This document shows positions 2,842 through 64,000 of a stretch of DNA of 64,000 bases, in pieces. This stretch comes from Cinnamomum chago (taxonomy: Eukaryota > Streptophyta > Magnoliopsida > Laurales > Lauraceae), in contig CP142457.1 in NCBI GenBank assembly GCA_038049695.1, forward strand, positions 21,962,501 to 22,026,500, read 5' to 3'. The notes below the pieces were generated by a model. The model was not told where the DNA came from and searched no databases. It was given only the letters and a program-made list of their open reading frames with translations. A program made the translations under genes and the position numbers. How positions within the stretch are numbered: the first letter of the stretch is position 1; each line of letters begins with the position of its first letter.

Positions 2842-2865
2842 CCGTACGACCCGCACGAAGTACGG
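2842..2865. other. Inverted repeat in C monomers with the AAGTACGGG variant
   Basis: CCGTAC at 2842-2847 and GTACGG at 2860-2865 form perfect 6-bp arms around a 12-base spacer. C copies with AAGTTCGGG have one mismatch in the arm. The variant is frequent in C/B fusion monomers. Confidence 0.55.
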
Positions 2866-23784: not shown

Positions 23785-26700
23785 AAAACGCAATCCCGGA
23801 TTTTTCCAAAGGGAGTCTTTGGACCAAGAGTCGCATGAAACACAGTGTTGACTCAACAACTTTCTAGAGTCGCACAGAATATGTTTTCGTTCAAAAGTAC
23901 CGTACGACCCTCGCATGAAGTTCCGGTTTTCGCCCTAGCAAACACTGAACTCCTCGAAAGTGATTTCCACACCCAAGATTCACCCGAAACCCATAGTAAA
24001 CCGAAGAGTAGCTCGGAATATCCTAAAAATCGCATCTCATCCCAAAATCCCAAAATATGGATTTAGAGACGTACGATAAGACAAGGACACCCGAAAACCT
24101 TTTTAGTTTAAAACTTGATCCCGGATATTTCTAGATGTTGCCTTTGTACACAGAGTCGCAAGAAACACAGTGTTGAGTTAACAATTTCCTAGAGCCGCAA
24201 AGATTCTGCTTTAGTACAAAAGTATCGTACGTCCCGCGCGAAGTTCGGGTTTTCTCCTTTACAACCAGAGAACTCCCCGAAAGTGTTTACCATACCCAAG
24301 GTTCGCCCGAAACCCGTTTTAAACCGAAAAGTAGCTCGAAATATCCTAAAAGGTGCATCTCAACCCAGAATACCTTCAAATGGATTTCGAGGCGTGAGAC
24401 AAGAGAAGGACACCCGAAACCCCTTCTATAGTAAAACGTGATCCTGGAATTTTCTAGAGGGAGTCTTTGGACCAAGAGTCGCATTAAAACACAGTGTAGA
24501 GTCAGCCATATTCTCGAGCCGCATAGATTGTGTTTTTGTACTAAAGGACCGTACGACCCGCACGAAGTACGGGTTTTCGCCTTTACATACACTGAACTCC
24601 CCGAATGTGTTTTCCTTACCCAAGATTCGCCCGAAACCCGTTTTAAACCGAAAAGTAGCTCGAAATATCTTAAAGAGCGCAACTCAACCCAGAATACCTT
24701 CAAATGGATTTCGAGGCGTGAGACAAGAGAAAGACACCCGAAACCCCTTCTATAGTAAAACGTGATCCTGGAATTTTCTAGAGGGACTCTTTAGACCAAG
24801 AGTCGCATTAAAACACAGTGTAGAGTCAGACATATTCTCGAGCCGCATAGATTGTGTTTTCGTACTAAAGGACCGTACGTCCCGCACGAAGTTCGGGTTT
24901 TCGCCTTTACAAACACTGAACTCCCCGAATGTGTTTTCCTTACCCAAGATTCGCCCGAAACCCGTTTTAAACCGAAAAGTAGCTCGAAATATCTTAAAGA
25001 GCGCATCTCAACCCAGAATCCCTTCAAATGGATTTGGAGCCGTAAGGAAAGACAGAGTCACCCGAAACCCCATTTAGAGTAAAACGCAATCCCGGATTTT
25101 TCCAAAGGGAGTCTTTGGACCAAGAGTCGCATGAAACACAGTGTTGACTCAACAACTTTCTAGAGCCGCACAGATTATGTTTTCGTTCAAAAGTACCGTA
25201 CGACCTCGCATGAAGTTCCGGTTTTCGCCCTAGCGAACACTGAACTCCCCGAAAGTGATTTCCACACCTAAAATTCACCCGAAACCCGTAGTAAACCGAA
25301 GAGCAGCTCGGAATATCCTAAAAATCGCATCTCATCCCAAAATCCCAAAATATGGATTTAGAGACGTACGATAAGACAAGGACACCCGAAACCCTTTTTA
25401 GTTTAAAACTTGATCCCGGATATTTCTAGATGTTGCCTTTGTACACAGAGTCGCAAGAAACACAGAGTGGAGTGAATAATTTCCTAGAGCCGCAAAGATT
25501 CTGCTTTAGTACAAAAGTATCGTACGTCCCGCGCGAAGTTCGGGTTTTCTCCTTTACAACCAGAGAACTCCCCGAAAGTGTTTACCATACCCAAGGTTCG
25601 CCCGGAACCCGTTTTAAATCAAAAAGTATCTCGAAATATCCTAAATGGTGCATCTCAACCCAGAATACCTTCAAATGGATTTCGAGGCGTGAGACAAGAG
25701 AAGGACACCCGAAACCCCTTCTATAGTAAAACGTGATCCTGGAATTTTCTAGAGGGAGTCTTTCGACCAAGAGTCGCATTAAAACACAGTGTAGAGTCAG
25801 CCATATTCTCGAGCCGCATAGATTGTGTTTTCGTACTAAAGGACCGTACGACCCGCACGAAGTACGGGTTTTCACCTTTACAAACACTGAACTCCCCGAA
25901 TGTGTTTTCCTTACCCAAGATTCGCCCGAAACCCGTTTTAAACCGAAAAGTAGCTCGAAATATCTTAAAGAGCGCATCTCAACCCAGAATCCCTACAAAT
26001 GGATTTGGAGCCGTAAGGAAAGACAGAGACACCCGAAACCCCATTTAGAGTAAAACGCAATCCCGATTTTTCCAAAGGGAGTCTTTGGACCAAGAGTCGC
26101 ATGAAACACAGTGTTGACTCAACAACTTTCTAGAGCCGCACAGATTATGTTTTCGTTCAAAAGTACCGTACGACCCTCGCATGAAGTTCCGGTTTTCGCC
26201 CTAGCAAACACTGAACTCCTCGAAAGTGATTTCCACACCCAAGATTCACCCGAAACCCGTAGTAAACCGAAGAGTAGCTCGGAATATCCTAAAAATCGCA
26301 TCTCATCCCAAAATCCCAAAATATGGATTTAGAGACGTACGATAAGACAAGGACACCCGAAAACCTTTTCAGTTTAAAACTTGATCCCGGATATTTCTAG
26401 ATGTTGCCTTTGTACACAGAGTCGCAAGAAACACAGTGTTGAGTTAACAATTTCCTAGAGCCGCAAAGATTCTGCTTTAGTACAAAAGTATCGTACGTCC
26501 CGCGCGAAGTTCGGGTTTTCTCCTTTACAACCAGAGAACTCCCCGAAAGTGTTTACCATACCCAAGGTTCGCCCGAAACCCGTTTTAAACCGAAAAGTAG
26601 CTCGAAATATCCTAAAAGGTGCATCTCAACCCAGAATACCTTCAAATGGATTTCGAGGCGTGAGACAAGAGAAGGACACCCGAAACCCCTTCTATAGTAA

Positions 26701-27994
26701 AACGTGATCCTGGAATTTTCTAGAGGGAGACTTTGGTCCAAGAGTCGCATTAAAACACAGTGTAGAGTCAGCCATATTCTCGAGCCGCATAGATTGTGTT
26801 TTCGTACTAAAGGACCGTACGACCCGCACGAAGTACGGGTTTTCGCCTTTACAAACACTGAACTCCCCGAATGTGTTTTCCTTACCCAAGATTCGCCCGA
26901 AACCCGTTTTAAACCGAAAAGTAGCTCGAAATATCTTAAAGAGCGCATCTCAACCAAGAATCCCTACAAATGGATTTGGAGCCGTAAGGAAAGACAGAGA
27001 CACCCGAAACCCCATTTAGAGTAAAACGCAATCCCGGATTTTTCCAAAGGGAGTCTTTGGACCAAGAGTCGCATGAAACACAGTGTTGACTCAACAACTT
27101 TCTAGAGCCGCACAGATTATGTTTTCGTTCAAAAGTACCGTACGACCCTCGCATGAAGTTCCGGTTTTCGCCCTAGCGAACACTGAACTCCCCGAAAGTG
27201 ATTTCCACACCCAAGATTCACCCGAAACCCGTAGTAAACCGAAGAGTAGCTCGGAATATCCTAAAAATCGCATCTCATCCCAAAATCCCAAAATATGGAT
27301 TTAGAGACGTACGATAAGACAAGGACACCCGAAAACCTTTTTAGTTTAAAACTTGATCCCGGATATTTCTAGATGTTGCCTTTGTACACAGAGTCGCAAG
27401 AAACACAGTGTGGAGTTAACAATTTCCTAGAGCCGCAAAGATTCTGCTTTAGTACAAAAGTATCGTACGTCCCGCGCGAAGTTCGGGTTTTCTCCTTTAC
27501 AACCAGAGAACTCCCCGAAAGTGTTTACCATACCCAAGGTTCGCCCGAAACCCGTTTTAAACCGAAAAGTATCTCGAAATATCCTAAAAGGTGCATCTCA
27601 ACCCAGAATACCTTCAAATGGATTTCGAGGCGTGAGACAAGAGAAGGACACCCGAAACCCCTTCTATAGTAAAACGTGATCCTGGAATTTTCTAGAGGGA
27701 GTCTTTGGACCAAGAGTCGCATTAAAACACAGTGTAGAGTCAACCATATTCTCGAGCCGCATAGATTGGGTTTTCGTACTAAAGGACCGTACGACCCGCA
27801 CGAAGTACGGGTTTTCGCCTTTACAAACACTGAACTCCCCGAATGTGTTTTCCTTACCCAAGATTCGCCCGAAACCCGTTTTAAACCGAAAAGTAGCTCG
27901 AAATATCTTAAAGAGCGCATCTCAACCCAGAATCCCTACAAATGGATTTGGAGCCGTAAGGAAAGACAGAGACACCCGAAACCCCATTTAGAGT
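23785..27994 (+). repeat. Super-HOR unit S1 (13 monomers, 4210 bp)
   Basis: A starts are 23785, 25081, 26052 and 27023. The 7-mer part is tetramer 23785-25080 plus the one-base-deleted trimer 25081-26051; the 6-mer part is 26052-27994. It is one base shorter than other units because the A at 26052 has TCCCGATTTT (one G lost at about 26065). The tetramer carries the subtype-1 fusion and closely resembles those of S6 and S7 25.9 kb away. Confidence 0.9.
24433..24756 (+). repeat. C/B fusion monomer (subtype 1)
   Basis: C head, B tail, switch after CAACCCAGAAT. Subtype-1 marks GAGAAAGACACC and the following GGGACTCTTTAG are present, plus GCGCAACTCAACC and TTTACATACACTG, which are shared with the fusions at 50347 and 54558. 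Confidence 0.9.
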
Positions 27995-28642
27995 AAAACG
28001 CAATCCCGGATTTTTCCAAAGGGAGTCTTTGGACCAAGAGTCGCATGAAACACAGTGTTGACTCAACAACTTTCTAGAGCCGCACAGATTATTTTTTCGT
28101 TCAAAAGTACCGTACGACCCTCGCATGAAGTTCCGGTTTTCGCCCTAGCAAACACTGAACTCCTCGAAAGTGATTTCCACACCCAAGATTCACCCGAAAC
28201 CCGTAGTAAACCGAAGAGTAGTTCGGAATATCCTAAAAATCGCAACTCATCCCAAAATCCCAAAATATGGATTTAGAGACGTACGATAAGACAAGGACAC
28301 CCGAAAACCTTTTTAGTTTAAAACTTGATCCCGGATATTTCTAGATGTTGCCTTTGTACACAGAGTCGCAAGAAACACAGTGTGGAGTGAACAATTTCCT
28401 AGAGCCGCAAAGATTCTGCTTTAGTACAAAAGTATCGTACGTCCCGCGCGAAGTTCGGGTTTTCTCCTTTACAACCAGAGAACTCCCCGAAAGTGTTTAC
28501 CATACCCAAGGTTCGCCCGAAACCCGTTTTAAATCGAAAAGTATCTCGAAATATCCTAAATGGTGCATCTCAACCCAGAATACCTTCAAATGGATTTCGA
28601 GGCGTGAGACAAGAGAAGGACACCCGAAACCCCTTCTATAGT

Positions 28643-28966
28643 AAAACGTGATCCTGGAATTTTCTAGAGGGAGTCTTTCGACCAAGAGTCGCATTAAAAC
28701 ACAGTGTAGAGTCAGCCATATTCTCGAGCCGCATAGATTGTGTTTTCGTACTAAAGGACCGTACGACCCGCACGAAGTACGGGTTTTCACCTTTACAAAC
28801 ACTGAACTCCCCGAATGTGTTTTCCTTACCCAAGATTCGCCCGAAACCCGTTTTAAACCGAAAAGTAGCTCGAAATATCTTAAAGAGCGCATCTCAACCC
28901 AGAATACCTTCAAATGGATTTCGAGGCGTGAGACAAGAGAAGGACACCCGAAACCCCTTCTATAGT
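28643..28966 (+). repeat. C/B fusion monomer (subtype 2)
   Basis: C head and B tail with GAGAAGGACACCC. The following C (28967-29290) begins with GGGAGTCTTTGGACC but continues with CAGACATATTC and a private AAGGACAGTACGTCCC. This combination defines subtype 2 and looks like a mosaic of alpha and subtype-1 C copies. Confidence 0.9.
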
Positions 28967-30261
28967 AAAACGTGATCCTGGAATTTTCTAGAGGGAGTCT
29001 TTGGACCAAGAGTCGCATTAAAACACAGTGTAGAGTCAGACATATTCTCGAGCCGCATAGATTGTGTTTTCGTACTAAAGGACAGTACGTCCCGCACGAA
29101 GTTCGGGTTTTCGCCTTTACAAACACTGAACTCCCCGAATGTGTTTTCCTTACCCAAGATTCGCCCGAAACCCGTTTTAAACCGAAAAGTAGCTCGAAAT
29201 ATCTTAAAGAGCGCATCTCAACCCAGAATCCCTTCAAATGGATTTGGAGCCGTAAGGAAAGACAGAGACACCCGAAACCCCATTTAGAGTAAAACGCAAT
29301 CCCGGATTTTTCCAAAGGGAGTCTTTGGACCAAGAGTCGCATGAAACACAGTGTTGACTCAACAACTTTCTAGAGCCGCACAGATTATGTTTTCGTTCAA
29401 AAGTACCGTACGACCTCGCATGAAGTTCCGGTTTTCGCCCTAGCGAACACTGAACTCCCCGAAAGTGATTTCCACGCCTAAGATTCACCCGAAACCCGTA
29501 GTAAACCGAAGAGTAGCTCGGAATATCCTAAAAATCGCATCTCATCCCAAAATCCCAAAATATGGATTTAGAGACGTACGATAAGACAAGGACACCCGAA
29601 ACCCTTTTTAGTTTAAAACTTGATCCCGGATATTTCTAGATGTTGCCTTTGTACACAGAGTCGCAAGAAACACAGAGTGGAGTGAATAATTTCCTAGAGC
29701 CGCAAAGATTCTGCTTTAGTACAAAAGTATCGTACGTCCCGCGCGAAGTTCGGGTTTTCTCCTTTACAACCAGAGAACTCCCCGAAAGTGTTTACCATAC
29801 CCAAGGTTCGCCCGAAACCCGTTTTAAATTGAAAAGTATCTCGAAATATCCTAAATGGTGCATCTCAACCCAGAATACCTTCAAATGGATTTCGAGGCGT
29901 GAGACAAGAGAAGGACACCCGAAACCCCTTCTATAGTAAAACGTGATCCTGGAATTTTCTAGAGGGAGTCTTTCGACCAAGAGTCGCATTAAAACACAGT
30001 GTAGAGTCAGCCATATTCTCGAGCCGCATAGATTGTGTTTTCGTACTAAAGGACCGTACGACCCGCACGAAGTACGGGTTTTCACCTTTACAAACACTGA
30101 ACTCCCCGAATGTGTTTTCCTTACCCAAGATTCGCCCGAAACCCGTTTTAAACCGAAAAGTAGCTCGAAATATCTTAAAGAGCGCATCTCAACCCAGAAT
30201 CCCTACAAATGGATTTGGAGCCGTAAGGAAAGACAGAGACACCCGAAACCCCATTTAGAGT

Positions 30262-32205
30262 AAAACGCAATCCCGGATTTTTCCAAAGGGAGTCTTTGGA
30301 CCAAGAGTCGCATGAAACACAGTGTTGACTCAACAACTTTCTAGAGCCGCACAGATTATGTTTTCGTTCAAAAGTACCGTACGACCCTCGCATGAAGTTC
30401 CGGTTTTCGCCCTAGCAAACACTGAACTCCTCGAAAGTGATTTCCACACCCAAGATTCACCCGAAACCCGTAGTAAACCGAAGAGTAGCTCGGAATATCC
30501 TAAAAATCGCATCTCATCCCAAAATCCCAAAATATGGATTTAGAGACGTACGATAAGACAAGGACACCCGAAAACCTTTTTAGTTTAAAACTTGATCCCG
30601 GATATTTCTAGATGTTGCCTTTGTACACAGAGTCGCAAGAAACACGGTGTGGAGTTAACAATTTCCTAGAGCCGCAAAGATTCTGCTTTAGTACAAAAGT
30701 ATTGTACGTCCCGCGCGAAGTTCGGGTTTTCTCCTTTACAACCAGAGAACTCCCCGAAAGTGTTTACCATACCCAAGGTTCGCCCGAAACCCGTTTTAAA
30801 CCGAAAAGTATCTCGAAATATCCTAAAAGGTGCATCTCAACCCAGAATACCTTCAAATGGATTTCGAGGCGTGAGACAAGAGAAGGACACCCGAAACCCC
30901 TTCTATAGTAAAACGTGATCCTGGAATTTTCTAGAGGGAGTCTTTGGACCAAGAGTCGCATTAAAACACAGTGTAGAGTCAGCCATATTCTCGAGCCGCA
31001 TAGATTGTGTTTTCGTATTAAAGGACCGTACGACCCGCACGAAGTTCGGGTTTTCGCCTTTACAAACACTGAACTCCCCGAATGTGTTTTCCTTACCCAA
31101 GATTCGCCCGAAACCCGTTTTAAACCGAAAAGTAGCTCGAAATATCTTAAAGAGCGCATCTCAACCAAGAATCCCTTCAAATGGATTTGGAGCCGTAAGG
31201 AAAGACAGAGACACCCGAAACCCAATTTAGAGTAAAACGCAATCCCGGATTTTTCCAAAGGGAGTCTTTGGACCAAGAGTCGCATGAAACACAGTGTTGA
31301 CTCAACAACTTTCTAGAGCCGCATAGATTATGTATTCGTTCAAAAGTACCGTACGACCCTCGCATGAAGTTCCGGTTTTCGCCCTAGCAAACACTGAACT
31401 CCACGAAAGTGATTTCCACACCCAAGATTCACCCAAAACCCGTAGTAAACCGAAGAGTAGCTCGGAATATCCTAAAAATCGCATCTCATCCCAAAATCCC
31501 TTCATATGGATTTAGAGGCGTACGATAAGAAAAGGACACCCGAAACCCTTTTTAGTTTAAAACTTGATCCCGGATATTTCTAGATGTTGCCTTTGTACAC
31601 AGAGTCGCAAGAAACACAGTGTGGAGTGAATAATTTCCTAGAGCCGCAAAGATTCTGCTTTAGTACAAAAGTATCGTACGTCCCGCGCGAAGTTCGGGTT
31701 TTCTCCTTTACAACCAGAGAACTCCCCGAAAGTGTTTACCATACCCAAGGTTCGCCCGAAACCCGTTTTAAACCGAAAAGTATCTCGAAATATCCTAAAA
31801 GGTGCATCTCAACCCAGAATACATTCAAATGGATTTCGAGGCGTGAGACAAGAGAAGGACACCCGAAACCCCTTCTATAGTAAAACGTGATCCTGGAATT
31901 TTCTAGAGGGAGTCTTTAGACTAAGAGTCGCATTAAAACACAGTGTAGAGTCAGCCATATTCTCGAGCCGCATAGATTGTGTTTTCGTACTAAAGGACCG
32001 TACGTCCCGCACGAAGTTCGGGTTTTCGCCTTTACAAACACTGAACTCCCCGAATGTGTTTTCCTTACCCAAGATTCGCCCGAAACCCGTTTTAAACCGA
32101 AAAGTAGCTCGAAATATCTTAAAGAGCGCATCTCAACCCAGAATCCCTACAAATGGATTTGGAGCCGTAAGGAAAGACAGAGACACCCGAAACCCCATTT
32201 AGAGT
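30262..32205 (+). repeat. Hexamer 1 of S2 (1944 bp)
   Basis: Alpha plus beta trimers, A starts 30262 and 31234. It resembles 21841-23784, sharing TATGTATTCG, CTCCACGAAAG and CACGGTGTGG. It lacks the GGGAATCTTT and CCCTCACATG changes of the next two hexamers. Confidence 0.9.
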
Positions 32206-34149
32206 AAAACGCAATCCCGGATTTTTCCAAAGGGAGTCTTTGGACCAAGAGTCGCATGAAACACAGTGTTGACTCAACAACTTTCTAGAGCCGCACAGAT
32301 TATGTTTTCGTTCAAAAGTACCGGACGACCCTCGCATGAAGTTCCGGTTTTCGCCCTAGCAAACACTGAACTCCTCGAAAGTGATTTCCACACCCAAGAT
32401 TCACCCGAAACCCGTAGTAAACCGAAGAGTAGCTCGGAATATCCTAAAAATCGCATCTCATCCCAAAATCCCAAAATATGGATTTAGAGACGTACGATAA
32501 GACAAGGACACCCGAAAACCTTTTTAGTTTAAAACTTGATCCCGGATATTTCTAGATGTTGCCTTTGTACACAGAGTCGCAAGAAACACGGTGTGGAGTT
32601 AACAATTTCCTAGAGCCGCAAAGATTCTGCTTTAGTACAAAAGTATCGTACGTCCCGCGCGAAGTTCGGGTTTTCTCCTTTACAACCAGAGAACTCCCCG
32701 AAAGTGTTTACCATACCCAAGGTTCGCCCGAAACCCGTTTTAAACCGAAAAGTATCTCGAAATATCCTAAAAGGTGCATCTCAACCCAGAATACCTTCAA
32801 ATGGATTTCGAGGCGTGAGACAAGAGAAGGACACCCGAAACCCCTTCTATAGTAAAACGTGATCCTGGAATTTTCTAGAGGGAATCTTTGGACCAAGAGT
32901 CGCATTAAAACACAGTGTAGAGTCAACCATATTCTCGAGCCGCATAGATTGTGTTTTCGTACTAAAGGACCGTACGACCCGCACGAAGTTCGGGTTTTCG
33001 CCTTTACAAACACTGAACTCCCCGAATGTGTTTTCCTTACCCAAGATTCGCCCGAAACCCGTTTTAAACCGAAAAGTAGCTCGAAATATCTTAAAGAGCG
33101 CATCTCAACCAAGAATCCCTTCAAATGGATTTGGAGCCGTAAGGAAAGACAGAGACACCCGAAACCCAATTTAGAGTAAAACGCAATCCCGGATTTTTCC
33201 AAAGGGAGTCTTTGGACCAAGAGTCGCATGAAACACAGTGTTGACTCAACAACTTTCTAGAGCCGCATAGATTATGTATTCGTTCAAAAGTACCGTACGA
33301 CCCTCACATGAAGTTCCGGTTTTCGCCCTAGCAAACACTGAACTCCACGAAAGTGATTTCCACACCCAAGATTCACCCAAAACCCGTAGTAAACCGAAGA
33401 GTAGCTCGGAATATCCTAAAAATCGCATCTCATCCCAAAATCCCTTCATATGGATTTAGAGGCGTACGATAAGAAAAGGACACCCGAAACCCTTTTTAGT
33501 TTAAAACTTGATCCCGGATATTTCTAGATGTTGCCTTTGTACACAGAGTCGCAAGAAACACAGTGTGGAGTGAATAATTTCCTAGAGCCGCAAAGATTCT
33601 GCTTTAGTACAAAAGTATCGTACGTCCCGCGCGAAGTTCGGGTTTTCTCCTTTACAACCAGAGAACTCCCCGAAAGTGTTTACCATACCCAAGGTTCGCC
33701 CGAAACCCGTTTTAAACCGAAAAGTATCTCGAAATATCCTAAAAGGTGCATCTCAACCCAGAATACATTCAAATGGATTTCGAGGCGTGAGACAAGAGAA
33801 GGACACCCGAAACCCCTTCTATAGTAAAACGTGATCCTGGAATTTTCTAGAGGGAGTCTTTAGACTAAGAGTCGCATTAAAACACAGTGTAGAGTCAGCC
33901 ATATTCTCGAGCCGCATAGATTGTGTTTTCGTACTAAAGGACCGTACGTCCCGCACGAAGTTCGGGTTTTCGCCTTTACAAACACTGAACTCCCCGAATG
34001 TGTTTTCCTTACCCAAGATTCGCCCGAAACCCGTTTTAAACCGAAAAGTAGCTCGAAATATCTTAAAGAGCGCATCTCAACCCAGAATCCCTACAAATGG
34101 ATTTGGAGCCGTAAGGAAAGACAGAGACACCCGAAACCCCATTTAGAGT
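32206..34149 (+). repeat. Hexamer 2 of S2 (1944 bp)
   Basis: A starts 32206 and 33178. It is nearly identical to hexamer 3, sharing GGGAATCTTTGG near 32880, CCCTCACATG near 33301 and TACCGGACGACC near 32319. These two copies are the newest part of the S2 expansion. Confidence 0.9.
32320..32348. other. Inverted repeat in A monomers with the CCGGACG variant
   Basis: ACCGGA at 32320-32325 and TCCGGT at 32343-32348 pair perfectly across 17 bases. Ordinary A copies have ACCGTA, which pairs over four bases only. The variant occurs in the A monomers at 32206, 34150, 36094, 41277, 45488, 49699 and 53910. Confidence 0.55.
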
Positions 34150-49698: not shown

Positions 49699-52600
49699 AA
49701 AACGCAATCCCGGATTTTTCCAAAGGGAGTCTTTGGACCAAGAGTCGCATGAAACACAGTGTTGACTCAACAACTTTCTAGAGCCGCACAGATTATGTTT
49801 TCGTTCAAAAGTACCGGACGACCCTCGCATGAAGTTCCGGTTTTCGCCCTAGCAAACACTGAACTCCTCGAAAGTGATTTCCACACCCAAGATTCACCCG
49901 AAACCCGTAGTAAACCGAAGAGTAGCTCGGAATATCCTAAAAATCGCATCTCATCCCAAAATCCCAAAATATGGATTTAGAGACGTACGATAAGACAAGG
50001 ACACCCGAAAACCTTTTTAGTTTAAAACTTGATCCCGGATATTTCTAGATGTTGCCTTTGTACACAGAGTCGCAAGAAACACGGTGTTGAGTTAACAATT
50101 TCCTAGAGCCGCAAAGATTCTGCTTTAGTACAAAAGTATCGTACGTCCCGCGCGAAGTTCGGGTTTTCTCCTTTACAACCAGAGAACTCCCCGAAAGTGT
50201 TTACCATACCCAAGGTTCGCCCGAAACCCGTTTTAAACCGAAAAGTAGCTCGAAATATCCTAACAGGTGCATCTCAACCCAGAATACCTTCAAATGGATT
50301 TCGAGGCGTGAGACAAGAGAAGGACACCCGAAACCCCTTCTATAGTAAAACGTGATCCTGGAATTTTCTAGAGGGAGTCTTTGGACCAAGAGTCGCATTA
50401 AAACACAGTGTAGAGTCAGCCATATTCTCGAGCCGCATAGATTGTGTTTTTGTACTAAAGGACCGTACGACCCGCACGAAGTACGGGTTTTCGCCTTTAC
50501 ATACACTGAACTCCCCGAATGTGTTTTCCTTACCCAAGATTCGCCCGAAACCCGTTTTAAACGGAAAAGTAGCTCGAAATATCTTAAAGAGCGCAACTCA
50601 ACCCAGAATACCTTCAAATGGATTTCGAGGCGTGAGACAACAGAAAGACACCCGAAACCCCTTCTATAGTAAAACGTGATCCTGGAATTTTCTCGAGGGA
50701 CTCTTTAGACCAAGAGTCGCATTAAAACACAGTGTAGAGTCAGACATATTCTCGAGCCGCATAGATTGTGTTTTCGTACTAAAGGACCGTACGTCCCGCA
50801 CGAAGTTCGGGTTTTCGCCTTTACAAACACTGAACTCCCCGAATGTGTTTTCCTTACCCAAGATTCGCCCGAAACCCGTTTTAAACCGAAAAGTAGCTCG
50901 AAATATCTTAAAGAGCGCATCTCAACCCAGAATCCCTTCAAATGGATTTGGAGCCGTAAGGAAAGACAGAGACACCCGAAACCCCATTTAGAGTAAAACG
51001 CAATCCCGGATTTTTCCAAAGGGAGTCTTTGGACCAAGAGTCGCATGAAACACAGTGTTGACTCAACAACTTTCTAGAGCCGCACAGATTATGTTTTCGT
51101 TCAAAAGTACCGTACGACCTCGCATGAAGTTCCGGTTTTCGCCCTAGCGAACACTGAACTCCCCGAAAGTGATTTCCACACCTAAGATTCACCCGAAACC
51201 CGTAGTAAACCGAAGAGTAGCTCGGAATATCCTAAAAATCGCATCTCATCCCAAAATCCCAAAATATGGATTTAGAGACGTACGATAAGACAAGGACACC
51301 CGAAACCCTTTTTAGTTTAAAACTTGATCCCGGATATTTCTAGATGTTGCCTTTGTACACAGAGTCGCAAGAAACACAGAGTGGAGTGAATAATTTCCTA
51401 GAGCCGCAAAGATTCTGCTTTAGTACAAAAGTATCGTACGTCCCGCGCGAAGTTCGGGTTTTCTCCTTTACAACCAGAGAACTCCCCGAAAGTGTTTACC
51501 ATACCCAAGGTTCGCCCGGAACCCGTTTTAAATCGAAAAGTATCTCGAAATATCCTAAATGGTGCATCTCAACCCAGAATACCTTCAAATGGATTTCGAG
51601 GCGTGAGACAAGAGAAGGACACCCGAAACCCCTTCTATAGTAAAACGTGATCCTGGAATTTTCTAGAGGGAGTCTTTCGACCAAGAGTCGCATTAAAACA
51701 CAGTGTAGAGTCAGCCATATTCTCGAGCCGCATAGATTGTGTTTTCGTACTAAAGGACCGTACGACCCGCACGAAGTACGGGTTTTCACCTTTACAAACA
51801 CTGAACTCCCCGAATGTGTTTTCCTTACGCAAGATTCGCCCGAAACCCGTTTTAAACCGAAAAGTAGCTCGAATTATCTTAAAGAGCGCATCTCAACCCA
51901 GAATCCCTACAAATGGATTTGGAGCCGTAAGGAAAGACAGAGACACCCGAAACCCCATTTAGAGTAAAACGCAATCCCGGATTTTTCCAAAGGGAGTCTT
52001 TGGACCAAGAGTCGCATGAAACACAGTGTTGACTCAACAACTTTCTAGAGCCGCACAGATTATGTTTTCGCTCAAAAGTACCGTACGACCCTCGCATGAA
52101 GTTCCGGTTTTCGCCCTAGCAAACACTGAACTCCTCGAAAGTGATTTCCACACCCAAGATTCACCCGAAACCCGTAGTAAACCGAAGAGTAGCTCGGAAT
52201 ATCCTAAAAATCGCATCTCATACCAAAATCCCAAAATATGGATTTAGAGACGTACGATAAGACAAGGACACCCGAAAACCTTTTTAGTTTAAAACTTGAT
52301 CCCGGATATTTCTAGATGTTGCCTTTGTACACAGAGTCGCAAGAAACACAGTTTGGAGTTAACAATTTCCTAGAGCCGCAAAGATTCTGCTTTAGTACAA
52401 AAGTATCGTACGTCCCGCGCTAAGTTCGGGTTTTCTCCTTTACAACCAGAGAACTCCCCGAAAGTGTTTACCATACCCAAGGTTCGCCCGAAACCCGTTT
52501 TAAACCGAAAAGTATCTCGAAATATCCTAAAAGGTGCATCTCAACCCAGAATACCTTCAAATGGATTTCGAGGCGTGAGACAAGAGAAGGACACCCGAAA

Positions 52601-53909
52601 CCCCTTCTATAGTAAAACGTGATCCTGGAATTTTCTAGAGGGAGTCTTTGGACCAAGAGTCGCATTAAAACACAGTGTAGAGTCAACCATATTCTCGAGC
52701 CACATAGATTGTGTTTTCGTACTAAAGGACCGTACGACCCGCACGAAGTTCGGGTTTTCGCCTTTACAAACACTGAACTCCCCGAATGTGTTTTCCTTAC
52801 CCAAGATTCGCCCGAAACCCGTTTTAAACCGAAGAGTAGCTCGAAATATCTTAAAGAGCGCATCTCAACCAAGAATCCCTTCAAATGGATTTGGAGCCGT
52901 AAGGAAAGACAGAGACACCCGAAACCCAATTTAGAGTAAAACGCAATCCCGGATTTTTCCAAAGGGAGTCTTTGGACCAAGAGTCGCATGAAACACAGTG
53001 TTCACTCAACAACTTTCTAGAGCCGCACAGATTATGTTTTCGTTCAAAAGTACCGTACGACCCTCGCATGAAGTTCCGGTTTTCGCCCTAGCAAACACTG
53101 AACTCCCCGAAAGTGATTTCCACACCCAAGATTCACCCAAAACCCGTAGTAAACCGAAGAGTAGCTCGGAATATCCTAAAAATCGCATCTCATCCCAAAA
53201 TCCCTTCATATGGATTTAGAGGCGTACGATAAGAAAAGGACACCCGAAACCCTTTTTAGTTTAAAACTCGATCCCGGATATTTCTAGATGTTGCCTTTGT
53301 ACACAGAGTCGCAAGAAACACAGTGTGGAGTGAATAATTTCCTAGAGCCGCAAAGATTCTGCTTTAGTACAAAAGTATCGTACGTCCCGCACGAAGTTCG
53401 GGTTTTCTCCTTTACAACCAGAGAACTCCCCGAAAGTGTTTACCATACCCAAGGTTCGCCCGAAACCCGTTTTAAACCGAAAAGTATCTCGAAATATCCT
53501 AAAAGGTGCATCTCAACCCAGAATACATTCAAATGGATTTCGAGGCGTGAGACAAGAGAAGGACACCCGAAACCCCTTCTATAGTAAAACGTGATCCTGG
53601 AATTTTCTAGAGGGAGTCTTTAGACTAAGAGTCGCATTAAAACACAGTGTAGAGTCAGCCATATTCTCGAGCCGCATAGATTGTGTTTTCGTACTAAAGG
53701 ACCGTACGTCCCGCACGAAGTTCGGGTTTTCGCCTTTACAAACACTGAACTCCTCGAATGTGTTTTCCTTACCCAAGATTCGCCCGAAACCCGTTTTAAA
53801 CCGAAAAGTAGCTCGAAATATCTTAAAGAGCGCATCTCAACCCAGAATCCCTACAAATGGATTTGGAGCCGTAAGGAAAGACAGAGACACCCGAAACCCC
53901 ATTTAGAGT
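49699..53909 (+). repeat. Super-HOR unit S6 (13 monomers, 4211 bp)
   Basis: A starts 49699, 50995 (one-base-deleted), 51966 and 52938. The identity run with S7 at offset 4211 extends from about 49544 to 53625. Shared rare variants are TTACGCAAGATTC near 51827, TTTTCGCTCAAAAG near 52065, CGCGCTAAGTTC near 52427 and GTGTTCACTCAAC near 52999. Confidence 0.94.
50347..50670 (+). repeat. C/B fusion monomer (subtype 1)
   Basis: Subtype-1 marks are present: GAAAGACACCC, GCGCAACTCAACC, TTTACATACACTG, and GGGACTCTTTAG in the next C. AAACGGAAAAGTAGC near 50561 and GAGACAACAGAAAG near 50634 are shared only with the fusion at 54558. Confidence 0.92.
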
Positions 53910-56900
53910 AAAACGCAATCCCGGATTTTTCCAAAGGGAGTCTTTGGACCAAGAGTCGCATGAAACACAGTGTTGACTCAACAACTTTCTAGAGCCGCAC
54001 AGATTATGTTTTCGTTCAAAAGTACCGGACGACCCTCGCATGAAGTTCCGGTTTTCGCCCTAGCAAACACTGAACTCCTCGAAAGTGATTTCCACACCCA
54101 AGATTCACCCGAAACCCGTAGTAAACCGAAGAGTAGCTCGGAATATCCTAAAAATCGCATCTCATCCCAAAATCCCAAAATATGGATTTAGAGACGTACG
54201 ATAAGACAAGGACACCCGAAAACCTTTTTAGTTTAAAACTTGATCCCGGATATTTCTAGATGTTGCCTTTGTACACAGAGTCGCAAGAAACACGGTGTTG
54301 AGTTAACAATTTCCTAGAGCCGCAAAGATTCTGCTTTAGTACAAAAGTATCGTACGTCCCGCGCGAAGTTCGGGTTTTCTCCTTTACAACCAGAGAACTC
54401 CCCGAAAGTGTTTACCATACCCAAGGTTCGCCCGAAACCCGTTTTAAACCGAAAAGTAGCTCGAAATATCCTAACAGGTGCATCTCAACCCAGAATACCT
54501 TCAAATGGATTTCGAGGCGTGAGACAAGAGAAGGACACCCGAAACCCCTTCTATAGTAAAACGTGATCCTGGAATTTTCTAGAGGGAGTCTTTGGACCAA
54601 GAGTCGCATTAAAACACAGTGTAGAGTCAGCCATATTCTCGAGCCGCATAGATTGTGTTTTTGTACTAAAGGACCGTACGACCCGCACGAAGTACGGGTT
54701 TTCGCCTTTACATACACTGAACTCCCCGAATGTGTTTTCCTTACCCAAGATTCGCCCGAAACCCGTTTTAAACGGAAAAGTAGCTCGAAATATCTTAAAG
54801 AGCGCAACTCAACCCAGAATACCTTCAAATGGATTTCGAGGCGTGAGACAACAGAAAGACACCCGAAACCCCTTCTATAGTAAAACGTGATCCTGGAATT
54901 TTCTCGAGGGACTCTTTAGACCAAGAGTCGCATTAAAACACAGTGTAGAGTCAGACATATTCTCGAGCCGCATAGATTGTGTTTTCGTACTAAAGGACCG
55001 TACGTCCCGCACGAAGTTCGGGTTTTCGCCTTTACAAACACTGAACTCCCCGAATGTGTTTTCCTTACCCAAGATTCGCCCGAAACCCGTTTTAAACCGA
55101 AAAGTAGCTCGAAATATCTTAAAGAGCGCATCTCAACCCAGAATCCCTTCAAATGGATTTGGAGCCGTAAGGAAAGACAGAGACACCCGAAACCCCATTT
55201 AGAGTAAAACGCAATCCCGGATTTTTCCAAAGGGAGTCTTTGGACCAAGAGTCGCATGAAACACAGTGTTGACTCAACAACTTTCTAGAGCCGCACAGAT
55301 TATGTTTTCGTTCAAAAGTACCGTACGACCTCGCATGAAGTTCCGGTTTTCGCCCTAGCGAACACTGAACTCCCCGAAAGTGATTTCCACACCTAAGATT
55401 CACCCGAAACCCGTAGTAAACCGAAGAGTAGCTCGGAATATCCTAAAAATCGCATCTCATCCCAAAATCCCAAAATATGGATTTAGAGACGTACGATAAG
55501 ACAAGGACACCCGAAACCCTTTTTAGTTTAAAACTTGATCCCGGATATTTCTAGATGTTGCCTTTGTACACAGAGTCGCAAGAAACACAGAGTGGAGTGA
55601 ATAATTTCCTAGAGCCGCAAAGATTCTGCTTTAGTACAAAAGTATCGTACGTCCCGCGCGAAGTTCGGGTTTTCTCCTTTACAACCAGAGAACTCCCCGA
55701 AAGTGTTTACCATACCCAAGGTTCGCCCGGAACCCGTTTTAAATCGAAAAGTATCTCGAAATATCCTAAATGGTGCATCTCAACCCAGAATACCTTCAAA
55801 TGGATTTCGAGGCGTGAGACAAGAGAAGGACACCCGAAACCCCTTCTATAGTAAAACGTGATCCTGGAATTTTCTAGAGGGAGTCTTTCGACCAAGAGTC
55901 GCATTAAAACACAGTGTAGAGTCAGCCATATTCTCGAGCCGCATAGATTGTGTTTTCGTACTAAAGGACCGTACGACCCGCACGAAGTACGGGTTTTCAC
56001 CTTTACAAACACTGAACTCCCCGAATGTGTTTTCCTTACGCAAGATTCGCCCGAAACCCGTTTTAAACCGAAAAGTAGCTCGAATTATCTTAAAGAGCGC
56101 ATCTCAACCCAGAATCCCTACAAATGGATTTGGAGCCGTAAGGAAAGACAGAGACACCCGAAACCCCATTTAGAGTAAAACGCAATCCCGGATTTTTCCA
56201 AAGGGAGTCTTTGGACCAAGAGTCGCATGAAACACAGTGTTGACTCAACAACTTTCTAGAGCCGCACAGATTATGTTTTCGCTCAAAAGTACCGTACGAC
56301 CCTCGCATGAAGTTCCGGTTTTCGCCCTAGCAAACACTGAACTCCTCGAAAGTGATTTCCACACCCAAGATTCACCCGAAACCCGTAGTAAACCGAAGAG
56401 TAGCTCGGAATATCCTAAAAATCGCATCTCATACCAAAATCCCAAAATATGGATTTAGAGACGTACGATAAGACAAGGACACCCGAAAACCTTTTTAGTT
56501 TAAAACTTGATCCCGGATATTTCTAGATGTTGCCTTTGTACACAGAGTCGCAAGAAACACAGTTTGGAGTTAACAATTTCCTAGAGCCGCAAAGATTCTG
56601 CTTTAGTACAAAAGTATCGTACGTCCCGCGCTAAGTTCGGGTTTTCTCCTTTACAACCAGAGAACTCCCCGAAAGTGTTTACCATACCCAAGGTTCGCCC
56701 GAAACCCGTTTTAAACCGAAAAGTATCTCGAAATATCCTAAAAGGTGCATCTCAACCCAGAATACCTTCAAATGGATTTCGAGGCGTGAGACAAGAGAAG
56801 GACACCCGAAACCCCTTCTATAGTAAAACGTGATCCTGGAATTTTCTAGAGGGAGTCTTTGGACCAAGAGTCGCATTAAAACACAGTGTAGAGTCAACCA

Positions 56901-58120
56901 TATTCTCGAGCCACATAGATTGTGTTTTCGTACTAAAGGACCGTACGACCCGCACGAAGTTCGGGTTTTCGCCTTTACAAACACTGAACTCCCCGAATGT
57001 GTTTTCCTTACCCAAGATTCGCCCGAAACCCGTTTTAAACCGAAGAGTAGCTCGAAATATCTTAAAGAGCGCATCTCAACCAAGAATCCCTTCAAATGGA
57101 TTTGGAGCCGTAAGGAAAGACAGAGACACCCGAAACCCAATTTAGAGTAAAACGCAATCCCGGATTTTTCCAAAGGGAGTCTTTGGACCAAGAGTCGCAT
57201 GAAACACAGTGTTCACTCAACAACTTTCTAGAGCCGCACAGATTATGTTTTCGTTCAAAAGTACCGTACGACCCTCGCATGAAGTTCCGGTTTTCGCCCT
57301 AGCAAACACTGAACTCCCCGAAAGTGATTTCCACACCCAAGATTCACCCAAAACCCGTAGTAAACCGAAGAGTAGCTCGGAATATCCTAAAAATCGCATC
57401 TCATCCCAAAATCCCTTCATATGGATTTAGAGGCGTACGATAAGAAAAGGACACCCGAAACCCTTTTTAGTTTAAAACTCGATCCCGGATATTTCTAGAT
57501 GTTGCCTTTGTACACAGAGTCGCAAGAAACACAGTGTGGAGTGAATAATTTCCTAGAGCCGCAAAGATTCTGCTTTAGTACAAAAGTATCGTACGTCCCG
57601 CACGAAGTTCGGGTTTTCTCCTTTACAACCAGAGAACTCCCCGAAAGTGTTTACCATACCCAAGGTTCGCCCGAAACCCGTTTTAAACCGAAAAGTATCT
57701 CGAAATATCCTAAAAGGTGCATCTCAACCCAGAATACATTCAAATGGATTTCGAGGCGTGAGACAAGAGAAGGACACCCGAAACCCCTTCTATAGTAAAA
57801 CGTGATCCTGGAATTTTCTAGAGGGAGTCTTTAGACCAAGAGTCGCATTAAAACACAGTGTAGAGTCAGCCATATTCTCGAGCCGCATAGATTGTCTTTT
57901 CGTACTAAAGGACCGTACGTCCCGCACGAAGTTCGGGTTTTCGCCTTTACAAACACTGAACTCCCCGAATGTGTTTTCCTTACCCAAGATTCGCCCGAAA
58001 CCCATTTTAAACCGAAAAGTAGCTCGAAATATCTTAAAGAGCGCATCTCAACCCAGAATCCCTACAAATGGATTTGGAGCCGTAAGGAAAGACAGAGACA
58101 CCCGAAACCCCATTTAGAGT
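53910..58120 (+). repeat. Super-HOR unit S7 (13 monomers, 4211 bp)
   Basis: A starts 53910, 55206 (one-base-deleted), 56177 and 57149. It is a near-perfect copy of S6 until 57836. From there the final C changes to the rare GATTGTCTTTTCG and AACCCATTTTAAACC form also found at the end of S2. Confidence 0.94.
54558..54881 (+). repeat. C/B fusion monomer (subtype 1)
   Basis: I saw no difference from 50347-50670 in the stretches compared, at offset 4211. Confidence 0.92.
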
Positions 58121-61100
58121 AAAACGCAATCCCGGATTTTTCCAAAGGGAGTCTTTGGACCAAGAGTCGCAAGAAACACAGTGTTGACTCAACAACTTTC
58201 TAGAGTCGCACAGATTATGTTTTCGTTCAAAAGTACCGTACGACCCTCGCATGAAGTTCCGGTTTTCGCCCTAGCAAACACTGAACTCCTCGAAAGTGAT
58301 TTCCACACCCAAGATTCACCCGAAACCCGTAGTAAACCGAAGAGTAGCTCGGAATATCCTAAAAATCGCATCTCATCCCAAAATCCCAAAATATGGATTT
58401 AGAGACGTACGATAAGACAAGGACACCCGAAAACCTTTTTAGTTTAAAACTTGATCCCGGATATTTCTAGATGTTGCCTTTGTACACAGAGTCGCAAGAA
58501 ACACAATGTTGAGTTAACAATTTCCTAGAGCCGCAAAGATTCTGCTTTAGTACAAAAGTATCGTACGTCCCGCGCGAAGTTCGGGTTTTCTCCTTTACAA
58601 CCAGAGAACTCCCCGAAAGTGTTTACCATACCCAAGGTTCGCCCGAAACCCGTTTTAAACCGAAAAGTAGCTCGAAATATCCTAAAAGGTGCATCTCAAC
58701 CCAGAATACCTTCAAATGGATTTCGAGGCGTGAGACAAGAGAAGGACACCCGAAACCCCTTCTATAGTAAAACGTGATCCTGGAATTTTCTAGAGGGAGA
58801 CTTTGGACCAAGAGTCGCATTAAAACACAGTGTAGAGTCAGCCATATTCTCGAGCCGCATAGATTGTGTTTTCGTACTAAAGGACCGTACGACCCGCACG
58901 AAGTACGGGTTTTCGCCTTTACAAACACTGAACTCCCCGAATGTGTTTTCCTTACCCAAGATTCGCCCGAAACCCGTTTTAAACCGAAAAGTAGCTCGAA
59001 ATATCTTAAAGAGCGCATCTCAACCCAGAATACCTTCAAATGGATTTCGAGGCGTGAGACAAGAGAAGGACACCCGAAACCCCTTCTATAGTAAAACGTG
59101 ATCCTGGAATTTTCTAGAGGGAGTCTTTGGACCAAGAGTCGCATTAAAACACAGTGTAGAGTCAGACATATTCTCGAGCCGCATAGATTGTGTTTTCGTA
59201 CTAAAGGACCGTACGTCCCGCACGAAGTTCGGGTTTTCGCCTTTACAAACACTGAACTCCCCGAATGTGTTTTCCTTACCCAAGATTCGCCCGAAACCCG
59301 TTTTAAACCAAAAAGTAGCTCGAAATATCTTAAAGAGCGCATCTCAACCCAGAATCCCTTCAAATGGATTTGGAGCCGTAAGGAAAGACAGAGACACCCG
59401 AAACCCCATTTAGAGTAAAACGCAACCCCGGATTTTTCCAAAGGGAGTCTTTGGACCAAGAGTCGCATGAAACACAGTGTTGACTCAACAACTTTCTAGA
59501 GCCGCACAGATTATGTTTTCGTTCAAAAGTACCGTACGACCTCGCATGAAGTTCCGGTTTTCGCCCTAGCGAACACTGAACTCCTCGAAAGTGATTTCCA
59601 CACCTAAGATTCACCCGAAACCCGTAGTAAACCGAAGAGTAGCTCGGAATATCCTAAAAATCGCATCTCATCCCAAAATCCCAAAATATTGATTTAGAGA
59701 CGTACGATAAGACAAGGACACCCGAAACCCTTTTTAGTTTAAAACTTGATCCCGGATATTTCTAGATGTTGCCTTTGTACACAGAGTCGCAAGAAACACA
59801 GAGTGGAGTGAATAATTTCCTAGAGCCGCAAAGATTCTGCTTTAGTACAAAAGTATCGTACGTCCCGCGCGAAGTTCGGGTTTTCTCCTTTACAACCAGA
59901 GAACTCCCCGAAAGTGTTTACCATACCCAAGGTTCGCCCGAAACCCGTTTTAAATCGAAAAGTATCTCGAAATATCCTAAACGGTGCATCTCAACCCAGA
60001 ATACCTTCAAATGGATTTCGAGGCGTGAGACAAGAGAAGGACACCCGAAACCCCTTCTATAGTAAAACGTGATCCTGGAATTTTCTAGAGGGAGTCTTTC
60101 GACCAAGAGTCGCATTAAAACACAGTGTAGAGTCAGCCATATTCTCGAGCCGCATAGATTGTGTTTTCGTACTAAAGGACCGTACGACCCGCACGAAGTA
60201 CGGGTTTTCACCTTTACAAACACTGAACTCCCCGAATGTGTTTTCCTTACCAAAGATTCGCCCGAAACCCGTTTTAAACCGAAAAGTAGCTCGAAATATC
60301 TTAAAGAGCGCATCTCAACCCAGAATCCCTTCAAATGGATTTGGAGCCGTAAGGAAAGACAGAGACACCCGAAACCCCATTTAGAGTAAAACGCAATCCC
60401 GGATTTTTCCAAAGGGAGTCTTTGGACCAAGAGTCGCATGAAACACAGTGTTGACTCAACAACTTTCTAGAGCCGCACAGATTATGTTTTCGTTCAAAAG
60501 TACCGTACGACCCTCGCATGAAGTTCCGGTTTTCGCCCTAGCAAACACTGAACTCCTCGAAAGTGATTTCCACACCCAAGATTCACCCGAAACCCGTAGT
60601 AAACCGAAGAGTAGCTCGGAATATCCTAAAAATCGCAACTCATCCCAAAATCCCAAAATATGGATTTAGAGACGTACGATAAGACAAGGACACCCGAAAA
60701 CCTTTTTAGTTTAAAACTTGATCCCGGATATTTCTAGATGTTGCCTTTGTACACAGAGTCGCAAGAAACACAGTGTGGAGTGAACAATTTCCTAGAGCCG
60801 CAAAGATTCTGCTTTAGTACAAAAGTATCGTACGTCCCGCGCGAAGTTCGGGTTTTCTCCTTTACAACCAGAGAACTCCCCGAAAGTGTTTACCATACCC
60901 AAGTTCCCCCGAAACCCGTTTTAAACCGAAAAGTATCTCGAAATATCCTAAAAGGTGCATCTCAACCCAGAATACCTTCAAATGGATTTCGAGGCGTGAG
61001 ACAAGAGAAGGACACCCGAAACCCCTTCTATAGTAAAACGTGATCCTGGAATTTTCTAGAGGGAGTCTTTGGACCAAGAGTCGCATTAAAACACAGTGTA

Positions 61101-62330
61101 GAGTCAACCATATTCTCGAGCCGCATAGATTGTGTTTTCGTACTAAAGGACCGTATGACCCGCACGAAGTACGGGTTTTCGCCTTTACAAACACTGAACT
61201 CCCCGAATGTGTTTTCTTTACCCAAGATTCGCCCGAAACCCGTTTTAAACCGAAAAGTAGCTCGAAATATCTTAAAGAGCGCATCTCAACCTAGAATCCC
61301 TTCAAATGGATTTGGAGCCGTAAGGAAAGACAGAGACACCCGAAACCCAATTTAGAGTAAAACGCAATCCCGGATTTTTGCAAAGGGAGTCTTTTGACCA
61401 AGAGTCGCCTGAAACACAGTGTTGACTCAACAACTTTCTAAAGCCGCACAGATTATGTTTTCGTTCAAAAGTACCGTACGACCCTCGCATGAAGTTCCGG
61501 TTTTCGCCCTAGCAAACACTGAACTCCCCGAAAGTGATTTCCACACCCAAGATTCACCCGAAACCCGTAGTAAACCGAAGAGTAGCTCGGAATATCCTAA
61601 AAATCGCATCTCATCCCAAAATCCCATCATATGGATTTAGAGGCGTACGATAAGACAAGGACACCCGAAACCCTTTTTAGTTTAAAACTTGATCCCGGAT
61701 ATTTCTAGATGTTGCCTTTGTACACAGAGTCGCAAGAAACACAGTGTGGAGTCAACAATTTCCTAGAGCCGCAAAGATTCTGCTTTAGTACAAAAGTATC
61801 GTACGTCCCGCGCGAAGTTCGGGTTTTCTCCTTTACAACCAGAGAACTCCCCGAAAGTGTTTACCATACCCAAGGTTCGCCCGAAACCCGTTTTAAACCG
61901 AAAAGTAGCTCGAAATATCCTAAAAGGTGAATCTCAACACAGAATACCTTCAAACGGATTTCGAGGCGTGAGACAAGAGAAGGACACCTGAAACCCCTTC
62001 TAGAGTAAAACGTGATCCTGGAATTTTCTAGAGGGAGTCTTTGGACCAAGAGTCGCATTAAAACACAGTGTAGAGTCAACCATATTCTCGAGCCGCATAG
62101 ATTGTGTTTTCGTACTAAAGGACTGTACGACCCGCACGAAGTTCGGGTTTTCGCCTTTACAAACACTGAACTCCCCGAATGTGTTTTCCTTACCCAAGAT
62201 TCGCCCGAAACCCGTTTTAAACCGAAAAGTAGCTCGAAATATCTTAAAGAGCGCATCTCCACCCAGAATCCCTACAAATGGATTTGGAGCCTTAAGGAAA
62301 GACAGAGACACCCGAAACCCCATTTAGAGT
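58121..62330 (+). repeat. Super-HOR unit S8, decaying (4210 bp)
   Basis: A starts 58121, 59417 (one-base-deleted), 60388 and 61359. The 13-monomer order is kept but private changes accumulate: CACAATGTTGAG near 58503, GCAACCCCGGATT near 59423, AATATTGATTTAG near 59687, CCCAAGTTCCCCCG near 60898 (one base lost) and TTTTTGCAAAGG near 61376. The extra lost base makes it 4210 bp. Confidence 0.9.
58769..59092 (+). repeat. C/B fusion monomer (subtype 2-like)
   Basis: C head and B tail with GAGAAGGACACC. The following C has GGGAGTCTTTGGACC and CAGACATATTC, but the normal GGACCGTACGTCCC rather than GGACAGTACG. It may be the precursor state of subtype 2. Confidence 0.9.
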
Positions 62331-63949: not shown

Positions 63950-64000
63950 AAAACGCAATCCCGGATTTTTCCAAAGGGAGTCTTTGGACCAAGAGTCGCA
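63950..64000 (+). repeat. Partial A monomer at window end
   Basis: This is the first 51 bases of an A monomer, cut by the window edge. The array therefore continues to the right. Confidence 0.92.

Follow-up and report, generated by a model that had tools for sequence, protein, structure and literature searches.

The window analysed here, a 64-kb stretch of Cinnamomum chago DNA, contains eight copies of a 13-monomer higher-order repeat (HOR) of 4211 bp. We interpret them as a local, recent tandem amplification within a megabase-size plant satellite array, probably a centromere, and assign this reading a probability of about 85%. All eight copies appear to trace to one misaligned recombination event, as units 1-8 share a breakpoint interval with a further tetramer, S0, that lies upstream of them. 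The case belongs to the ordinary turnover of higher-order repeats, through either unequal exchange or break-induced replication, and represents no new kind of element.

Period and layout of the super-repeat

The whole window (1..64000, forward strand) is a satellite array, recognised by TRF as a single array of period 324 bp. The monomers form three clusters, A, B and C, and follow each other mostly as an A-B-C trimer of 972 bp (autocorrelation 0.804 at lag 972). Origin of the monomer from a 162-bp half-monomer was rejected (lag-162 identity 0.218). On C7, a chromosome of 64 Mb, the satellite starts at 21.819 Mb and continues on the same strand to 23.5 Mb or further; among 20 probes placed between 20.0 and 26.0 Mb, ten matched the family, and these span 21.82-23.5 Mb. 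A 24-mer of the family occurs at 39,259 sites in the genome of 12 chromosomes. Internal sites on C4 (65.5-66.0 Mb out of 98.6 Mb) and C1 (76.4 Mb out of 130 Mb) also carry the family, and the A-B-C trimer is present on C4 as well. A literature search for a 324-bp satellite with HORs found none among the matches listed.

Between positions 23785 and 62330 the highest autocorrelation peak among lags 1-19999 is at 4211 (0.838), above lag 972 (0.772) and lag 8422 (0.771). In the contiguous block 37066-62330, identity at lag 4211 is 0.951, the top value among lags 300-12699, where the median is 0.252. When the order of the 78 monomers of this block was shuffled in 200 trials, identity at the same lag averaged 0.378 and reached 0.502 at most. 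Autocorrelation, the check named in the original prediction, thus returned the predicted 4211-bp repeat. The nested reading, from 324 via 972 to 4211 bp, is also supported, and the predicted plan of a tetramer followed by three trimers (A-B-C-C, then three times A-B-C) was confirmed.

The eight units, all on the forward strand, form two blocks. The first block (23785-32205) consists of unit 1 (23785..27994) and unit 2 (27995..32205), and the second (37066-62330) of units 3 (37066..41276), 4 (41277..45487), 5 (45488..49698), 6 (49699..53909), 7 (53910..58120) and 8 (58121..62330). Judging by start spacings, the length is 4211 bp in six units and 4210 bp in the other two, units 1 and 8. The blocks are separated by a 4860-bp spacer (32206..37065, forward strand) of five plain A-B-C trimers with no 13-mer, most of which belongs to a local repeat of 1944 bp (31221-36566; mean identity of the run 0.9999). 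The predicted count of eight units is therefore retained, but they form neither one continuous run nor a series of uniform length. In the 264 kb examined, 13-mer units are confined to 23785-62330. As in HORs generally, the copies are more alike than their constituent monomers: the units are 98.4-99.9% identical, as against 78-82% between A, B and C (one monomer of each compared). As in cascading HORs, the 13 monomers represent fewer types, namely A, B, C and a C/B chimera.

Chimeric monomer and one-base deletion

The tetramer has the structure A-B-(C/B)-C, the extra monomer having a C-type 5' part and a B-type 3' end. In unit 3 this monomer (37714..38037, forward strand) agrees with a C-to-B chimera at 53 of 54 diagnostic columns, compared to 41 for pure C and 12 for pure B, and its counterparts are present in the other seven units. 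The S0 tetramer (17630..18925, forward strand) contains the same chimera, with its CC pair starting at 18278 and the breakpoint in the same interval. Eleven genuine CC pairs were found in 264 kb. Ten of them (S0, units 1-8 and C7:22030985) show the C-to-B switch at 52-54 of 54 columns with a single common breakpoint interval, and the eleventh (C7:21914244) fits at 51 of 54 columns with a different breakpoint. Two additional matches of the junction, C7:21836648 and 21846408, are not tetramers: in one, an A comes after a full-length C (97.2%), and the other matches C up to position 301.

Defects of the opposite sign, with one monomer missing, have a similar appearance. All 11 B-A junctions fit B-to-C chimeras (49-54 of 54 columns) with two breakpoint intervals, and are copies rather than 11 independent events; the one remaining A-C step, C7:21894487, also fits a B-to-C chimera (53 of 54 columns). 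These counts exclude seven of 18 CC pairs and seven of eight A-C steps. All lie in the right flank and are artefacts of ungapped labelling, the monomer concerned being of B type at 48-49 of the 54 columns.

The tetramer probably arose by an exchange between partners shifted by one monomer, and the C/B chimera, missed in the original prediction, points to this founding event. The 31-mer of the reciprocal junction has no matches in the genome, so that the complementary product was not found; a later loss or a one-sided event could account for this.

The A monomer after the tetramer carries a one-base deletion, marked in unit 3 by the 13-mer CGTACGACCTCGC (38478..38490, forward strand). This 13-mer occurs at exactly eight positions of the window (25197, 29407, 38478, 42689, 46900, 51111, 55322 and 59533), so that searching for it, as had been proposed for counting units along the array, gives one copy per unit. 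The undeleted form is at 19042, inside the A (18926) behind the S0 tetramer. Beyond the window there are two more copies, C7:22028510 and 22080623, without a tetramer directly before them. The earlier description of the deletion as a clean clonal marker is thus correct as to its absence from the A at 18926, its presence in all eight units and its use for tracing lineage, but the match between marker and tetramer breaks down in these two copies. Of 13 exact matches in the genome, ten are in the C7 array, all within 93 kb, and three are in sequence that does not resemble the satellite; the exact genome search found none in other arrays. The marks are nested, as S0 has the chimera without the deletion and units 1-8 have both, which suggests that the chimera preceded the deletion and the deletion preceded the amplification.

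Divergence of the units and other local repeats

Over 4212 aligned columns, pairs of units differ at 3-68 sites. Four groups can be distinguished (units 2-5, units 6-7, unit 1 and unit 8), with 37-68 differences between groups. Units 3-5 differ from each other at 3-7 columns and from unit 2 at 14-16, units 6 and 7 differ at four, and units 1 and 8 differ from the others at 53-68. The units are mosaic, without a single clean breakpoint. In the region 539-1089, units 6 and 7 agree with unit 1 at all 12 informative columns; they alternate in 1273-3408 (six columns with unit 1, 14 with units 2-5), and agree with units 2-5 at 16 of 16 columns after 3408. In total they side with units 2-5 at 32 of 50 columns, a count that includes changes private to unit 1.

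These differences bear on the possibility that reads tiled several times, or two haplotypes placed in tandem, created extra 4211-bp copies. The few differences among units 3-5 are near the resolution limit of long reads, and identities of 99.96-99.99% are reached by certain other local duplications; the 10368-bp one above all might be partly an assembly error. On the other hand, the units form four groups with mosaic structure, whereas one would expect only two from haplotype tiling, and units 1 and 8 lack a base compared to the other six. Because of such unit-specific differences we consider an artefact very unlikely, although the copy number could be off by one or two.

Runs of constant near-identity in 264 kb occur at eleven distances: 1944, 2915/2916, 3888, 4211, 4536, 5830, 8747, 9394, 10368, 11289 and 12262 bp. 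Together with one LTR pair they cover 134,622 of 264,000 bases, about half. Part of the 10368-bp (32-monomer) duplication occupies positions 1..13724 (forward strand; mean identity 0.9996-0.9999) and continues to the left of the window. The best partner lies at most 25 kb away for 456 of the 512 windows of this region that have one, the range of distances considered (up to 120 kb) favouring local partners.

Many human chromosomes have one predominant HOR, and by analogy the 4211-bp unit could be a stable, functional third-level HOR, the selected repeat of the C7 centromere. The height of the autocorrelation peak and the low divergence among units agree with this. However, the marker occurs in satellite DNA nowhere outside one 93-kb stretch, its ten copies compare with 546 exact A-type 37-mers, and there are ten further super-periods in the same 264 kb; this explanation seems very improbable. 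The 4211-bp unit prevails locally, in this stretch, and is not an array-wide third level; of the original description as a third-level super-HOR, the nesting stands, but the level applies to one among eleven local super-periods.

Known systems, the probable centromere and the proposed history

The HORs of Arabidopsis CEN178 are mainly local. Like CEN178, which has very many HOR block pairs according to one account, the array described here is a plant satellite, but in C. chago the local blocks are built on a clear trimer of three types (PMC10199239). Switchgrass centromeres are described as having HORs with altered monomers as well; however, the monomers are of 175/166 bp, the HORs of 0.8-1.1 kb, and the altered monomers are truncations (PMC4053949). 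The super-repeat resembles the complex or cascading HORs and superHORs of great-ape alpha satellite, reported examples in orangutan being 45- to 84-mers, in having a many-monomer unit, recurring types and near-identical head-to-tail copies; it differs in its unrelated 324-bp monomer and in having eight copies in two blocks rather than tens to hundreds (PMC12428378), and is confined to one stretch of one array. Alpha satellite itself was ruled out by the monomer length (324, not 171 bp), the lag-171 identity of 0.218 and the lack of a full CENP-B box. Hybrid monomers of human centromeres join a prefix of one type to a suffix of another, as the chimera does with C and B, and have been suggested to be a focal point of centromere evolution; unlike those described there, the C. 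chago hybrid is in every copy of the amplified unit, and would mark the founding of a local HOR (PMC8336445).

The C7 array is probably a centromere, given its size, internal position and abundance; C4 and C1, at the sampled sites, resemble C7 in carrying the family internally. Alternatively, it could be a non-centromeric (pericentromeric or knob-like) heterochromatic satellite subject to the same local amplification. No centromere-specific retrotransposon was recognised in the two inserted stretches examined, one an LTR element without an ORF longer than 96 aa between the LTRs and the other with a copia-type gag ORF. However, the satellite is megabase-scale and internal on C7, and the observed/expected CpG ratio is 1.22 in the window, compared to 0.23-0.70 in non-array DNA. 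Centromeric satellite has been described as less methylated in Arabidopsis, maize and rice cen11, with the opposite in other rice centromeres. On balance we regard a non-centromeric array as rather unlikely.

Candidate protein-binding motifs were also considered. The CENP-B box motif used for comparison has nine core positions. None of the consensus monomers matches all nine, the best matches being eight in A and seven in B and C. Of 1000 shuffled C monomers, 505 have at least seven and 38 at least eight. A CENP-B-box-like motif was rejected, as there is no full match and the eight positions in A, although uncommon, were obtained once among three monomers. A conserved binding box shared by monomers of C1, C4 and C7 was rejected too: the most invariant 20-column stretch in 14 monomers scores 0.60, below the mean permutation maximum of 0.62, and this score was reached in 78.6% of 1000 permutations.

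The preferred reading, local amplification within a probable centromere, may be described as follows. A 324-bp family with older types A, B and C would have given rise to the 972-bp trimer, which C4 and C7 at least have in common. Pairing of trimers with an offset of one monomer, followed by exchange within the C/B alignment, may then have produced A-B-(C/B)-C with one extra monomer, after which the downstream A would have lost one base. Repeated duplication would have multiplied the tetramer with three trimers (13 monomers, 4211 bp), whether through out-of-register exchange, gene conversion or break-induced replication involving the sister or the homologue, and the copies would have been reshuffled into mosaics. 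Local duplications of other lengths would have arisen likewise in the same array. The sequence states of all these steps are observed, and we infer the order from the exchange onwards, as well as the enzymatic route and the identity of the array as a centromere.

The super-repeat alone leaves existing knowledge unchanged. Its interest is as a legible case of HOR birth, in which the chimera would record the misaligned exchange, the one-base loss the lineage, and the near-identical units amplification with mosaic recombination. It is still a matter of debate whether unequal exchange or break-induced replication gives birth to HORs, and local series of this kind could be traced in related individuals. 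Tentatively, the array may be a patchwork of short-lived super-HORs of about 2-12 kb, each born in place by an out-of-register event and replaced before takeover, with turnover outpacing CpG decay. If so, chimeric monomers would be a readable founding record for ordering and dating HOR births in a plant centromere.

A local 13-monomer unit

The entire window, C7:21962501-22026500, is a single head-to-tail array of a 324-bp monomer, whose three types A, B and C (78-82% identical in gapped alignments of example monomers) are arranged as a 972-bp trimer. The 4211-bp periodicity of the original prediction was recovered as the highest autocorrelation peak over the reported span (0.838). At this spacing the value in 37066-62330 is 0.951, against at most 0.502 in 200 random rearrangements of its 78 monomers. 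The plan of 13 monomers, a tetramer A-B-C-C followed by three A-B-C trimers, also holds, and the marker, a 1-bp loss in the A after the tetramer, is present in all eight units. The units start at 23785, 27995, 37066, 41277, 45488, 49699, 53910 and 58121. Six of them have 4211 bp, but units 1 and 8 have 4210 bp, and the eight form two blocks rather than one run, since five plain trimers (4860 bp) stand between units 2 and 3. The earlier reading was thus real and mostly measured correctly, but mis-scaled, as the super-HOR is local.

In 264 kb (the window and 100 kb on each side), partners of overlapping 972-bp windows were sought at identity of at least 90% and distances up to 120 kb, a search that favours near partners. 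They were found for 512 of 542 windows, the inserted element and right flank being among the 30 partnerless ones, and the best partner lay within 25 kb in 456 of the 512. Runs of at least four windows with one constant distance of at least 1500 bp and identity of at least 99% numbered 28, covering 134,622 of 264,000 bases. The eleven satellite super-periods are 1944, 2915/2916, 3888, 4211, 4536, 5830, 8747, 9394, 10368, 11289 and 12262 bp. The two longest correspond to 34.84 and 37.85 monomers of 324 bp rather than to whole numbers, and fall in a stretch where monomer tracking broke too. The distance 5354, outside this set, is the LTR pair of the inserted element. The marker has 13 exact matches in the genome: eight in the window, two to its right in the C7 array, and three on C10 and C12, where the surrounding sequence has no similarity to the satellite. 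Since there are eleven super-periods, and the ten satellite copies of the marker are confined to this array, the 4211-bp unit is one of several local winners and not the third level of the array. The array is a patchwork, and the birth of this local super-HOR within it can still be read.

A 10368-bp tandem duplication of 32 monomers (mean identity 0.9996-0.9999) occupies C7:21957757-21976225, starting left of the window and taking in window 1-13724. It is no older than the 4211-bp units, and is either a very recent event or a piece of assembly worth checking.

Chimeric monomers and the history of the units

The tetramer does not contain two full C monomers: the first of the pair is C-type until about 60-75 bases from its end and B-type thereafter. 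The C and B consensus sequences, from 766 monomers in the 264 kb, differ in 54 columns. Ungapped labelling yielded 18 CC pairs in this region; seven, in the right flank, were rejected as ordinary A-B-C with a mislabelled B. Ten of the remaining 11 (the earlier tetramer S0, whose CC pair starts at 18278, units 1-8, and C7:22030985) fit a switch from C to B in one common interval at 52-54 of the 54 columns, whereas a pure C matches 41-42 columns and a pure B 11-12. The eleventh, at C7:21914244, has another C/B breakpoint (51/54 columns) and is the single such case within 264 kb. The opposite defect, A-B-A with C absent, occurs 11 times, many of these being copies of each other; the B fits a B-to-C chimera in all (49-54/54 columns), with breakpoints in either of two intervals. 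The chimeras match the +1 and -1 products expected of trimers that pair one monomer off-register, with the exchange falling inside monomers.

An exact 31-mer spanning the C/B junction has nine matches in the genome, all on C7, seven of which are tetramers of the 13-mer lineage. Units 1, 6 and 7 escape it because of one common substitution (column 897). The matches around C7:21836648 and C7:21846408 were rejected as tetramers, the former being an ordinary C and the latter a C where the match ends early. The reciprocal junction 31-mer has no matches in the genome.

The chimera occurs without the deletion in S0 (17630-18925) and at C7:22030985, together with it in units 1-8, and the deletion occurs without a chimera directly before it at C7:22028510 and 22080623. 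In the simplest order, the chimera would have come first, then the deletion, then amplification, the two marks being parted by later exchange. Pairwise differences number 3-7 among units 3-5, four between units 6 and 7, 14-16 between unit 2 and units 3-5, 37-47 between units 6-7 and 2-5, and 53-68 between unit 1 or 8 and the remaining units.

Repeated tiling of one read could also produce unit copies. We considered the 50 columns in which unit 1 departs from a state common to units 2-5 and in which units 6 and 7 are identical to each other. The pair 6/7 sides with unit 1 in 18 of them and with units 2-5 in 32, the latter including some changes private to unit 1. The matches are clustered: 12/12 informative columns in 539-1089 follow unit 1, 16/16 beyond column 3408 follow units 2-5, and the columns in between are mixed (six and 14, respectively). 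Such clustering is not expected under single-read tiling and is the pattern given by recombination between units.

Satellite family, CpG content and inserted elements

The assembly comprises 1.061 Gb in 14 contigs, twelve of 56-134 Mb, taken to be the chromosomes of a flowering plant with n=12, and two of 707,525 and 152,753 bases, sizes consistent with mitochondrion and plastid. A C7 A-type 37-mer has 546 exact matches, all on the plus strand; the 100 listed are all on C7, the first at 21818973. Twenty probes were placed on C7 from 20.0 to 26.0 Mb. Ten contain the satellite, always on the plus strand (21.82 Mb and nine at 22.14-23.5 Mb). Of the ten without it, six lie at 20.0-21.78 Mb and three at 24-26 Mb, and the last, at 21.85 Mb, sits inside the array. 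A family 24-mer has 39,259 genome sites with at most two mismatches (34,678 plus, 4,581 minus; reversed control, 0). The wider array size and family spread point to the C7 array as a probable centromere.

All three types are present on C4 (92-95% identity), where the two pieces read have local periods of 1944 and 2910 bp; the trimer therefore occurs beyond the C7 array too, and the super-units seen are local. At C4:66001701-66007700 the 2910-bp period consists of nine monomers with short deletions. The 2-kb piece C1:76375471-76377494 carries a divergent branch on the opposite strand, 75-83% identical to the C7 types, which belongs to none of the types A, B and C.

The CpG observed/expected ratio over the window is 1.22, with 1.13-1.29 for the C1 and C4 satellite pieces; non-array pieces have 0.66-0.70, the copia-side stretch 0.31 and the LTR element within the array 0.23. 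The stretch interrupting the array on the right contains a copia gag family ORF (Pfam PF14223, E 1.5e-17). The LTR element (C7:22095034-22103337) has two LTRs of about 2.9 kb, 99.97% identical, with no ORF above 96 aa between them; no target-site duplication was found by eye, and its two flanks are at different monomer positions. The insertion is recent and apparently non-autonomous; given its recency, its low CpG reflects the past of its family and not decay in the array. Methylation of centromeric satellites, according to a review, is lower in some plants, with the opposite in some rice centromeres (PMC8997354). The satellite CpG may be kept either by low methylation or by rapid turnover.

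Mechanism and comparison with known HORs

The same review derives HORs by two routes, unequal exchange and break-induced replication, and finds complex HORs harder to account for by exchange or conversion (PMC8997354). The chimeric +1 and -1 monomers point to pairing that kept register inside the monomer but was shifted by one whole monomer; they can arise by either route. That the reciprocal junction is absent from the genome leans, slightly and weakly, towards a one-sided founding event.

Hybrid monomers are described in a study of human centromeres (PMC8336445), another on great apes calls units with recurring monomer types "cascading" (PMC12428378), and two papers report HORs as widespread in plants (PMC4053949; PMC10199239). 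The C7 super-HOR is of the same kind as these, although its monomer is unrelated. The 4211-bp super-HOR is thus ordinary in kind and valuable as an example.
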